Assembly (NCBI GenBank): GCA_015490995.1
Contig: WFWT01000144.1
Span: 1-51,267, forward strand
Direction of reading: 5' to 3'
Length of the DNA stretch: 51,267 nucleotides
From: Anaerolineae bacterium
Lineage (GTDB): Bacteria; Chloroflexota; Anaerolineae; JAADDB01
The notes under the pieces were generated by a model. That model was not told the DNA's origin, ran no database searches, and saw only the letters and a list, made by a program, of their open reading frames with translations. A program made the position numbers and the translations under genes. This document shows positions 26,785 through 30,394 of this stretch, in pieces (position 1 is the first letter of the stretch; each line of letters starts with the position of its first letter).

Positions 26785-26814
26785 TTGCCATTTTTTTGCT
26801 TTTTTCGGTAGGAT
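26785..26814 (+). promoter_or_regulatory. Putative promoter with T-tract spacer for the MerR-like gene
   Basis: TTGCCA (26785-26790) and TAGGAT (26809-26814) are separated by an 18-base spacer containing two T-tracts (7 and 6 T). Such tracts in this GC-rich DNA suggest intrinsic curvature or spacer twisting, as in MerR-controlled promoters. Confidence 0.45.
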
Positions 26815-26926: not shown

Positions 26927-27592
26927 GTGGGGCATAAGCGTTGGTTGACATTGCGTGAGGCTGCGGAACGGTTGGGAGTCCATCCCACTACGCTACGTCA
27001 ATGGGCGGATGCAGGGTTGATTCCCGCATTTCGCACGCCGGGAGGGCATCGGCGTTTTGCCCGGGAGGATGTGGAGGCCTTCCTGCGCGAGCGGGTACAG
27101 GGTCATTCGGGCGCCTTGCCCCAGCCGGCCCAGCACCTCCTGGGGGAAGCCCTTTCCACGGTGCGTCAACGGTTGTCCACCGAACGGCAACGCGCGCTGT
27201 GGTATCGGGCCTTCGATGAGGCTACCCGGCAGCGCAAGCGCGAGGAAGGTCGCATGTTGTTTTCCCTCGCGTTGCAGTACATTACCAAGCCCGAAGAACG
27301 GGAGCGGATCCTCGCTCAAGTGCATCGTCTGGGATACAGGTACGGTGAGGAAAGTGTGCGCTTCAACGTTCCGCTGGTGGAGGCATTGCGTGCGATTTTC
27401 TTTTTCGAATCCACCCTGTTAGACACTCTGGACGTGCGGGGTGATCTGATCAACGGTCAGAGTCCGGCCAGTTTGAGGGTGGAACGGGGAGTGCAAGATT
27501 TCATTCGGGAGGTGGTTTACGCGGTAGCAACGGGTTATGAGGATGCCATACGGCGTTCCCTAGAGGCACCCAGGGCGGAACCCGAGGAGTAG
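26927..27592 (+). CDS. MerR-type HTH regulator with helical C-terminal sensor-like domain
   Basis: A 221-aa protein. Residues ~5-55 are a MerR/excisionase-type winged helix: LTLREAAERLGVHPTTLRQW, then a beta-wing with FRTPGGHRRFAREDVEAFL. Residues ~75-215 are all helical, with RILAQVHRLGYRYGEES and PLVEALRAIFFFESTLLDTL. That pattern recalls the four-helix RsbRD/PucR-type N-domains, but I cannot name it with certainty. The GTG at 26927 has AGGAGG 5 bases upstream, rather than the ATG at 26897. A 40-aa membrane protein gene starts 3 bases after its stop. Confidence 0.85.
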   Translation: MGHKRWLTLREAAERLGVHPTTLRQWADAGLIPAFRTPGGHRRFAREDVEAFLRERVQGHSGALPQPAQHLLGEALSTVRQRLSTERQRALWYRAFDEATRQRKREEGRMLFSLALQYITKPEERERILAQVHRLGYRYGEESVRFNVPLVEALRAIFFFESTLLDTLDVRGDLINGQSPASLRVERGVQDFIREVVYAVATGYEDAIRRSLEAPRAEPEE

Positions 27593-27595
27593 GTG

Positions 27596-27718
27596 ATGCG
27601 TAACGAACCGCCGCGCTGGCTCGAGCGGGTAGTACCTATCACCCTGGCGGTGTTGGCCATCCTGGCAGTGGCCATGGTGCTGGTCGCGCTGTACGTGATC
27701 GTGGTCGGCGCGGCCTGA
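27596..27718 (+). CDS. 40-aa single-pass membrane microprotein
   Basis: ATG at 27596, TGA at 27716-27718. The protein has a charged N-terminus (MRNEPPRWLERVV) followed by ~26 uninterrupted hydrophobic residues (for example LAVLAILAVAMVLVALYVIV) and ends VGAA. GAGGAG overlapping the regulator's final codons serves as SD, so translation is coupled. Positive residues before the helix predict the N-terminus inside. No family recognised. It may be a partner of the regulator or of the downstream membrane protein. Confidence 0.7.
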   Translation: MRNEPPRWLERVVPITLAVLAILAVAMVLVALYVIVVGAA

Positions 27719-27890
27719 GACCTGACCCTGGCCGGGATAGGTCGCCGATTCAACAGCCCGGCAATTGTGTCCGGGGGTGGAGCCCAGTAAGACCAAACAG
27801 GTCAGGACGGAAGGGTTTGAGCGTGCGCAGGCCGAACGTTGATGTGGAGGGCGCGGCGGCACAGCCGTGAGGACATCTCCGGCACAATGG
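27719..27890 (+). other. Possibly structured RNA or leader between microprotein and membrane-protein genes
   Basis: A ~170-base non-coding stretch with several complementary segments. CCTGACC near 27722 can pair with GGTCAGG near 27806. CCCGG/CCGGG forms a hairpin near 27758-27777. CAAAC/GTTTG closes a loop near 27800-27825. The loop holds GGTCAGGACGGAAGG, reminiscent of the SRP RNA apical motif, but the following AGCAGCC strand is missing. It could be a leader or riboregulator. I do not assign a family. Confidence 0.3.
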
Positions 27891-27908
27891 GCGGAAGGAG
27901 GCAGGACC

Positions 27909-28646
27909 ATGGAGGCAGCACGGTTGGCGTGGTTACCCCTGTTTTCCTCGGTAATTACTTATGTCTTTGCCGCGACGGTCTTACAACGATGGTGGCAACG
28001 CCGGCGGGCGTACTTGCTCCTTTGGGGAATCGGGCTACTGATGTACGCCACCGGCGGTTTAATGGAAGCCCTTTACGGATTTTTGGGCTGGCATCCCCTG
28101 ATTTTCCGGTTTTGGTACCTTTTCGGCGCGGTGTTGGTAGCCGCTTGGTTGGGCCAGGGCACGGCGTACCTGTTGATCCGACGACGGGTGGCCGGTATTC
28201 GGCTCGCGCACCTCATGATGGCCGTGCTGGTGGTGGCCTCCATGTTTGCAGCCCATCGGGTGTTCACCGCGGAGTTGGATCCCACCCGCATGTTGAAAGG
28301 GGAGTTGAGCGGTCATGCCATTATTACACCAGGCGTGCGGGTGCTCACGCCCTTCTTTAACATCTACGGTGTGATTCTGTTGGTGGGTGGTGCCATCTAC
28401 TCGGCTTGGCTGTTCTGGCGGAAACGTGTGCTGTTGCACCGCACGATAGGTAATATTCTCATTGCCACCGGCGCGCTGGGGCCTGCCATCGGGGGCGCGA
28501 TGCAACGGTTTGGCATTCCGGTGGCCCTCTATGTAGGGGAGTTCGTGGGGGCCGTGCTGATGTTCGCCGGTTTTCTCTACGCCTCCCGCCCGGCGTCCGA
28601 GTCCGCGGCCGCTGTGGCACCTTCTCAGGCCGGATCCGGTCAATAA
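27909..28646 (+). CDS. Multi-pass integral membrane protein of unknown function
   Basis: A 245-aa protein with about seven hydrophobic segments and basic cytoplasmic-type loops (QRWWQRRRAY, LIRRRVAGIR, WRKRVLLHR). No enzymatic motif is seen. Helical spacing resembles small 7-TM sensor or carrier-like families, with an Ala-rich C-terminal tail. The ATG at 27909 has AAGGAGG ~7 bases upstream; 14 earlier in-frame codons lack an SD. It is followed by a strong terminator, so it ends the transcript that may begin at the MerR-like gene. Confidence 0.8.
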   Translation: MEAARLAWLPLFSSVITYVFAATVLQRWWQRRRAYLLLWGIGLLMYATGGLMEALYGFLGWHPLIFRFWYLFGAVLVAAWLGQGTAYLLIRRRVAGIRLAHLMMAVLVVASMFAAHRVFTAELDPTRMLKGELSGHAIITPGVRVLTPFFNIYGVILLVGGAIYSAWLFWRKRVLLHRTIGNILIATGALGPAIGGAMQRFGIPVALYVGEFVGAVLMFAGFLYASRPASESAAAVAPSQAGSGQ

Positions 28647-28673
28647 GCGTTCACCCAGCTCATCCCGATGGGG

Positions 28674-28703
28674 CCGGGGAGTGTTGCTCCCCGGTTTTTT
28701 ATT
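28674..28703 (+). terminator. Rho-independent terminator after the membrane-protein gene
   Basis: A perfect 8-bp GC-rich stem CCGGGGAG/CTCCCCGG (28674-28681 with 28687-28694), 5-base loop, then TTTTTTATT. This is a textbook intrinsic terminator 27 bases after the stop. Confidence 0.92.
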
Positions 28704-28843
28704 GTCGGGAGGGCGTGTGGGAACCGACGTCCCTGTCGGAATAAAAGCTTCCTGGGGCCCGATAAGGGGATACTCCTTTTGGATTATTGACATAAACAAG
28801 GTCGACAGGGGGCGGCGCGGTGCAGATTACTCCAAAGAGGGTA

Positions 28844-28954: not shown

Positions 28955-30394
28955 ATGCGACGTGTACGAAGTATGATTTTGGCTGTTGTGGGGCTTTTGG
29001 TCGTTGCCAGCATGGTCATGGCGGCGACCGGTCCGAATCCCGGCAGTGGAAGCACCGATGTGCGGTTCTTCAATTTCAGTGATAACACCGCCACGGTGGT
29101 CATCGACTACATTAACGAATCCGGCACGATTGAAGCGACAAGGTCTGCTACGGTAAACTCCAAGGGGAGCTATGACTTCCTGGCTGCGCAGTCCGGCCTG
29201 GGCGATGGCTGGAATGGCGCGGGCGTGATTTCCTCGGATCAAGAAGGTGCGTCAGTGGCCTTTGTGTACTGGGTCAACGGCGATAGCGCGGACGGCACGA
29301 CGGCCGCCGCGTATCAGGGTGTGCCGCAGGGTGCGACGACCCTCTATTGCCCCTCCCTGGCGGCCCGGCCGAACAAGCAGAAGTCCTTGATCGCGGTACA
29401 GAACGCGGACACGGGAACGGCAGAGGTCGAGTTGAACTTCTATGACCGCGCCGGTAATGCGTGGAACGGTAACCCGGTGCAGGCCTCGATTCCTGAGGGT
29501 GCGAGCAGGACGTGGGATCTCACCGAGCTGTCGTTGCCGACGACCACTCCGCCGGGTGACGGCTGGCTGGGCAGTGTTCAGATCAGGAGCACAAACAACA
29601 AGCGGTTGGCCGCGATCGTGACGATGTTCTGGCGCCAGTTCTCCTCCGCGTACAACTGTGTGTCCGGTGGGGACACGACCATCATCTTCCCGGACGTCAA
29701 GCGCCGCGTGTTTAACGGAGTGTGGCGCCAGTACGGCGGTAACGTGATCCAGAACTTGGGCAACCAGACGGCCAACATCCTGGTAGAAGTCCTGGACCGC
29801 AACGGCAACGTGCTCTACAACTTCAACACAACGATCCCGCCGTTGGCCAGCCGAGGCTTTAACACCCGCTTCAACGCGGATGCGCCGAACCCCACGGCGT
29901 TCCACAACGCGATGGGCAATGACTTCAACGGCGCGCTCCGGGTGACATCGACCAACGGCCAGCCGCTGGCCGCGGTGAACAACGGTCTCACGGTTATCGC
30001 GGGCCGGCAGCGGGCCAGCACGTACGTGGCCGAAGGGGTCAACACGGGCAGCACAACCCTCTACTTCCCTGCCGTTTATCGCATCGTCTCCGGCAACGAC
30101 TGGGCGCGCTTCAGCGCCATAATTATCACCAACACAAGCGACACGATAGCCAACGTGACGTTGCGCTTCTATGACAAGGCGGGGAACCTGGTGCTGACCG
30201 ACAGCAACAACCAGATCCCGCCCGGCACCAGCGCGGGCTTCAACACCCGCTTTGGCATCTCCCTGGATAATCCGGAAGCCCTAGGATCCAACTTTGAGGG
30301 CGCAGTGGAGGTGATCTCCGACCAGCCTGTGGTAGGCTTGGTGAACACCAACTACCCCGACCAGCAGGCGACGTACAACGCGTATAAGCGGTAA
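28955..30394 (+). CDS. Secreted beta-repeat protein, candidate abundant cell-surface protein
   Basis: A 479-aa protein. A signal peptide (basic MRRVRS, hydrophobic core, cleavage likely after VMA near residue 23) is followed by three or four related ~110-residue beta-sandwich units. Recurring elements are NFYDRAGN / EVLDRNGN / RFYDKAGN, then IPEGASR / IPPLASRGFNTRF / IPPGTSAGFNTRF, and VISSD / VTSTNGQPLA / VISDQPVVGLV. It is Asn/Thr/Gly-rich with almost no Cys and no lipobox or membrane anchor. The start has AAGGAGG 8 bases upstream. With its own promoter and terminator it is probably strongly expressed, perhaps as an S-layer or matrix component. Function unknown. Confidence 0.85.
   Translation: MRRVRSMILAVVGLLVVASMVMAATGPNPGSGSTDVRFFNFSDNTATVVIDYINESGTIEATRSATVNSKGSYDFLAAQSGLGDGWNGAGVISSDQEGASVAFVYWVNGDSADGTTAAAYQGVPQGATTLYCPSLAARPNKQKSLIAVQNADTGTAEVELNFYDRAGNAWNGNPVQASIPEGASRTWDLTELSLPTTTPPGDGWLGSVQIRSTNNKRLAAIVTMFWRQFSSAYNCVSGGDTTIIFPDVKRRVFNGVWRQYGGNVIQNLGNQTANILVEVLDRNGNVLYNFNTTIPPLASRGFNTRFNADAPNPTAFHNAMGNDFNGALRVTSTNGQPLAAVNNGLTVIAGRQRASTYVAEGVNTGSTTLYFPAVYRIVSGNDWARFSAIIITNTSDTIANVTLRFYDKAGNLVLTDSNNQIPPGTSAGFNTRFGISLDNPEALGSNFEGAVEVISDQPVVGLVNTNYPDQQATYNAYKR

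Follow-up and report, generated by a model that had tools for sequence, protein, structure and literature searches.

Is the compact group of genes near the middle of this contig a sensing system in its own right, or does it belong to a larger pathway? The window, by which we mean the whole 51,267-nucleotide stretch that was analysed, corresponds to contig C144 of an Anaerolineae genome (3.04 Mb, 150 contigs). It carries, on one strand (+), a regulator that we call REG, a 40-aa microprotein and a 245-aa protein with seven transmembrane helices (the 7-TM protein), followed by a hairpin and a T tract (Table 1). The original prediction took these three frames for a self-contained sensing cassette. 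The frames are real genes, but the three are not always together, and the cassette does not stand alone, because relatives of REG and of the 7-TM gene occur in heme biosynthesis operons. The reading we prefer, and hold about as readily as we would its denial, is that of a module of Chloroflexota linked to the biosynthesis of tetrapyrroles (heme or siroheme), with REG as the regulator and the other two proteins as a membrane pair on the same pathway.

Table 1. Features of the REG, microprotein and 7-TM region, in positions of the window
Feature	Position	Strand	Remarks
Sigma-70-like promoter match upstream of REG	26785..26814	+	consensus match only
REG	26927..27592	+	GTG start; HTH_17/MerR-type DNA-binding domain ~26942-27094; predicted globin-fold domain ~27116-27553
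Microprotein, 40 aa, one-helix membrane	27596..27718	+	ATG start 27596, stop 27718; family, alignment, purifying selection
Spacer, 190 nt	27719..27908	+	no evidence of structured or conserved RNA
7-TM protein	27909..28646	+	weak likeness to HisKA_7TM, below cut-off; fold predicted as GPCR-like; kinase domain absent
Intrinsic-terminator-like hairpin and T tract	28670..28706 (hairpin 28670-28698)	+	sequence scan

An NmrA-like gene lies upstream of REG and is divergent, and the region holds four sigma-70-like promoter sites where shuffled sequences give 1.0, a count that is not evidence of function. The terminator that had been proposed is borne out as a terminator-like element: its hairpin has 13 pairs, the other two terminator-like sites having 5 and 6, and a T tract is present; however, the scan found three such sites against 3.0 expected in shuffles, and is thus not significant by itself. 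Farther downstream (28955-30391) is a protein with repeated stretches matching DUF5719 (27.8 bits, cut-off 26.2).

The possibly structured RNA that was placed between the microprotein and the 7-TM gene did not hold up. The spacer folds no better than ordinary sequence (MFE z-score -0.89, with 35 of 200 shuffles folding at least as well), it has no counterpart in five other genomes of the family, and a same-genus locus (G001) has only ~37 nt in its place. Rfam returned no match for it except L31-leader at an E-value of 2.4. The letters GGTCAGG..CGGAAGG at 27804-27818 resemble the SRP RNA core; an SRP-like RNA was rejected on the ordinary folding and lack of conservation just described, the want of an SRP match in Rfam and the location of this genome's SRP RNA on contig C40.

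The microprotein starts 3 nt after the stop codon of REG, with GAGGAG just 5′ of its own start. A profile search with 16 seeds found it directly upstream of the 7-TM gene, on the same strand, at 78 of 133 unique 7-TM loci, or 76 of 130 when only loci whose upstream sequence reached 400 nt or more were counted. This pairing is seen in 17 of 23 loci of a first set that includes the window, in 3 of 40 of a phylum-wide set, and in 58 of 70 of a named scan that was mostly of Anaerolineae and from which duplicates were removed for this count. Likewise, 86 of the 95 profile matches are located just upstream of a 7-TM gene. The aligned members share a core close to Y-P-P-x-[YFW]-E-[KR]-x-[VI]-P-I and then one hydrophobic helix. 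Of the 973 pairs with measurable divergence, 930 have proportionally less nonsynonymous than synonymous change, and dN/dS is 0.02-0.2 in the closest pairs, with a median of 0.49 over all pairs; the microprotein is under purifying selection. The window microprotein does not score above the cut-off of any Pfam family. The frequent pairing, the consistent placement and the low dN/dS together identify a real gene family with the 7-TM gene as its constant neighbor. The frame whose conservation the original prediction had put at stake is thus conserved.

The predicted coupling of the microprotein to the regulator also holds where REG is present, since, among the 14 loci that have REG, microprotein and 7-TM gene in succession, 9 have the first two spaced by -8 to +5 nt. 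A microprotein serving as a partner specific to REG was rejected, because it goes with the 7-TM gene and many of its loci have no REG nearby. Clustering of the three genes is therefore recurrent in the sense that the microprotein keeps to the 7-TM gene and that REG immediately precedes that gene at 16 of 120 unique loci, but the constant partner of the microprotein is the 7-TM gene and not REG.

The 7-TM gene has an AGGAGG-like site upstream, and the membrane protein of about seven helices that had been predicted is matched by a high-confidence model with seven (pLDDT 93.5), for which basic loops would place the N-terminus outside and the C-terminus inside. The protein is present in 202 of 400 genomes of the phylum, usually one per genome. 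In one family, f61, another regulator is paired with the same membrane protein. GPCRs make up all of the top 50 structural matches to the model by VIA-align and, except for one row (myomaker), the top 50 by Foldseek; the best is at Z 14.4 and rmsd 4.1 over 218 residues, while Foldseek E-values are weak (best 7.8e-3). This likeness may reflect perhaps only a common arrangement of seven helices, and we draw no conclusion from families missing in the VIA-align tables. At the sequence level, HisKA_7TM (PF16927) matches residues 11-225 of the window protein with 18.8 bits, below its cut-off of 28.6. Pfam finds neither a kinase domain nor a cytochrome-assembly match in the protein, and a PDB sequence search with the 7-TM profile gave no matches.

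The neighbors of the 7-TM gene differ among families. Heme genes lie within 5 kb in 4 of 40 loci that were chosen before the heme link was known, and in 2 of 80 loci of the named Anaerolineae scan. Among follow-up loci picked after the link was known, with HemD, HemC, HemE and HemH named by NCBIfam, the association is systematic in some families. For example, 7 of 9 f79 loci, as well as the f77 locus, have the order hemC-hemD-7TM, and the frames there often overlap by 4-8 nt, although two of the seven f79 loci (L297 and L302) lack hemC among their matches and L297 has a gap of ~740 nt. The order cobA-hemD-7TM is found in 3 of 5 f53 loci, and hemQ-hemE-hemH is followed 1-3 kb on by the 7-TM gene in 4 of 5 f59 loci; six further loci of other families, picked in the same way, had heme genes in none. 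Two loci join heme genes with both REG and the 7-TM gene: L287 reads hemD-hemB-hemQ-hemE-hemH-REG-7TM, and L084 reads REG-sirC-hemA-ccsB-micro-7TM-hemC-hemD-rSAM-hemB, in which REG, the microprotein, the 7-TM gene and six tetrapyrrole genes stand in a row.

These arrangements bear on the idea that the 7-TM protein and its accessory microprotein form a general membrane receptor signalling to whichever regulator is adjacent, be it REG or an ECF sigma factor with its anti-sigma factor, and that closeness to heme genes is secondary. Such a role would fit the GPCR-like predicted fold and the HisKA_7TM-like match, which recurs, always weak and below the cut-off, in 9 of 22 members of the family. It would also account for the several families in which REG precedes the 7-TM gene and for the ECF sigma and anti-sigma-like genes upstream of it in all four f61 loci fetched (L165-L168; the ECF factor was confirmed for L166). 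Nevertheless, several families in which no regulator stands beside the 7-TM gene have it overlapping hemD or directly adjoining it, and most Anaerolineae loci consist of the microprotein and 7-TM pair with no adjoining regulator. We therefore regard a general receptor as a doubtful, though serious, explanation.

REG is a 221-aa protein whose N-terminus is a MerR/BldC-type HTH above Pfam cut-offs (PF00376, 47.6 versus 28.2 bits; PF12728, 63.6 versus 27), BldC (6ama_Y) matches its model at Z 9.3 over 57 residues, and the matches of a PDB sequence search with the REG profile are HTH proteins. The helical, sensor-like domain that had been proposed behind the HTH is predicted to be globin-like. In the AlphaFold model (pLDDT 90.1), the best match of residues 64-209 to a solved structure is the non-heme sensor globin 3pmc_A (pXO2-61), at Z 13.4 and rmsd 3.1 over 132 residues, although unrelated helical models can reach Z 13-14 by chance; globin-coupled sensors, flavohemoglobins and phycobiliproteins follow at Z 8-10. 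Given that chance level, and given that plain Foldseek found no match to the REG model at an E-value of 0.001 or better, we consider the predicted globin fold of the C-terminal domain good but not certain. Pfam detects no RsbRD_N match in REG of the window at an E-value of 1, and 2 of 28 homologues match this family (best E-value 2.9e-4). No position of the globin-fold domain has His, Cys or Met at a frequency above 0.22 in an alignment of 79 homologues (top His 0.20, top Met 0.22). These frequencies do not support a globin that binds heme via a conserved His, and no conserved residue that might serve as a tetrapyrrole ligand was seen in the alignment.

Heme genes lie within 5 kb of REG in 9 of 31 loci from a search for relatives (L056-L086), although at one of the nine, L075, the sole such gene is an rSAM gene at a distance of 3.7 kb. 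A second set, selected purely for the diversity of its families (L252-L271), has them in 12 of 20 loci; the 7-TM gene lies within 1.5 kb in 7 of the 31 and none of the 20. Taken together, these REG-centred sets have heme-synthesis genes within 5 kb in 21 of 51 loci, mostly with REG directly upstream. All 83 unique REG loci, some of which entered via the 7-TM gene and which, like L297-L316, were partly picked after the links had been seen, include 24 with heme genes, 24 with the 7-TM gene and one with both by the same distance rules. The 24 of 83 with heme genes compare with 5 of 99 control loci that have the 7-TM gene and no REG (Fisher p 1e-5). The heme genes nearly always follow REG on the same strand, and in the 18 loci where one lies within 1.5 kb the nearest is sirC (10), hemA (6) or an rSAM gene (2). 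NCBIfam identified representative heme genes as CysG-N, HemA, HemC, CobA/HemD, HemB, HemQ, HemH, AhbD-like rSAM, protoporphyrinogen oxidase and CcsB.

Not all neighbors of REG are of this kind, and it could be argued that REG and the membrane pair serve the cell envelope or its redox state (lipid, thiol or cytochrome maturation), with heme genes as one target among several. Non-heme sensor globins, which include the best fold match of the REG domain, are a class in which fatty-acid binding is known. REG is beside tlpA-like genes in L059, L061 and L080, and in L076 and L273 genes for a DtxR-like regulator and FeoB come directly after it, a link to iron; the 7-TM gene, for its part, follows a CcdA-like gene in L092 and ccsB with the microprotein in L084. 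However, genes for heme synthesis are the commonest identified neighbors of REG across distant families, as the diversity set illustrates, and we judge this broader role quite improbable.

For the window genome itself, the heme link rests on relatives, since its heme operon lies elsewhere, on contig C36 (L295, G000:C36:27000-45000), in the order hemC-hemB-hemQ-rSAM-hemA-(hemL-like)-hemE-hemH-hemG. That operon contains neither REG nor the 7-TM gene, and a search for 12-mers with at most two mismatches found no operator common to its promoter and that of REG, so REG would have to act on it in trans, if at all.

REG and the 7-TM gene are not an obligate pair, because many genomes hold one without the other: across 400 genomes both are present in 120, one alone in 82 and 93, and neither in 105. 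This co-occurrence is weak (Fisher p 0.016, not corrected for relatedness) and points to modules that can be combined rather than to an obligate system. That the two stand together in the window by chance, as functionally unrelated genes, agrees with this and with their lying apart in most genomes that have both, but is very unlikely given the narrow REG-microprotein spacing noted above and an adjacency that recurs in distant families (L135, L169, L170, L274, L275, L282, L287 and L288).

If the cassette is a module linked to tetrapyrrole synthesis, REG would act as a one-component transcription regulator whose HTH binds the promoters of heme genes in relatives and, in the window, probably the promoter of its own transcript with the microprotein and 7-TM genes. 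Its globin-fold domain, devoid of a heme ligand, would respond to a partner protein or to a small molecule such as a tetrapyrrole or a lipid. The microprotein and its 7-TM neighbor would associate as a membrane pair on the same pathway, either as a membrane sensor or as a HemX-like brake or chaperone; contact between REG and the 7-TM protein, or tethering of REG by the microprotein, may occur. A bolder form, which we think unlikely but worth stating, makes REG a regulator of heme synthesis throughout Chloroflexota, with a globin-fold domain that binds a tetrapyrrole (porphyrin, precorrin or bilin) but does not keep heme in the classical manner, and the membrane pair a GPCR-fold receptor or brake that reports or limits heme flux. 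If true, this would be a new regulatory architecture for heme biosynthesis.

The positions of relatives in heme operons suggest an undescribed way of controlling heme synthesis. Extracts from a 2024 review on the regulation of the coproporphyrin pathway refer to Chloroflexota solely in connection with the mixture of heme pathways in the phylum, and a literature search, largely without subscription papers, turned up none that names a regulator of heme there. A conserved HTH-globin regulator immediately 5′ of heme genes, together with an unnamed 7-TM protein and its one-helix partner encoded within operons of this kind, offers a direct handle on heme control in a large and poorly studied phylum. 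It also provides an example, open to experiment, of a globin fold that may respond to a tetrapyrrole or lipid while holding no heme.

Several known systems resemble parts of this module. RsbR and pXO1-118 are described as non-heme globins in extracts from the MabR paper (PMC11617747), and portions of another study (PMC10151467) count phycobiliproteins, photoglobins and BBAGs among the globins that bind bilins and take the globin domain of RsbR as outgroup. Like the non-heme sensor globins (the RsbR N-terminal domain RsbRD_N, pXO1-118/pXO2-61 and the MabR N-terminal domain), the photoglobins and the BBAGs, REG has a predicted globin fold in which no His ligand is conserved; unlike the non-heme sensor globins, its domain is fused to a MerR/BldC-type HTH and heads heme operons in relatives. 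REG shares with CarH and other MerR-type one-component regulators the order of a MerR-type HTH and then a sensor domain, and CarH is both among its structural matches and a weak NCBIfam match, but REG lacks a B12-binding domain and its helical domain is globin-like.

For the membrane protein, a possible functional parallel is HemX of Firmicutes, a polytopic protein likewise encoded in hem operons (in relatives, in the case of the 7-TM gene). According to the abstract of PMC5801465, S. aureus requires HemX, an integral membrane protein, to hold glutamyl-tRNA reductase at a low level. However, L084 has both a CcsB-like protein and the 7-TM protein, and the two have no significant similarity (BLASTP E-value 0.16, negative profile score), so the 7-TM protein, with the microprotein, is possibly a HemX analogue at most. 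HisKA_7TM, the N-terminal 7-TM region of histidine kinases, is of similar length and gives the weak profile match, whereas the 7-TM protein lacks the kinase domain, falls below the Pfam cut-off and has a microprotein partner. One-helix regulatory microproteins are a general kind in bacteria, and the present family is like them in its length (40-58 aa), its one hydrophobic helix and its position beside a gene for a larger membrane protein, except that here the partner is assigned by gene order. Finally, records titled Acidimicrobiia and Spirochaetes (L173, L174 and L233) carry a microprotein and 7-TM pair close to the Anaerolineae one, and are perhaps mis-binned or mis-titled.
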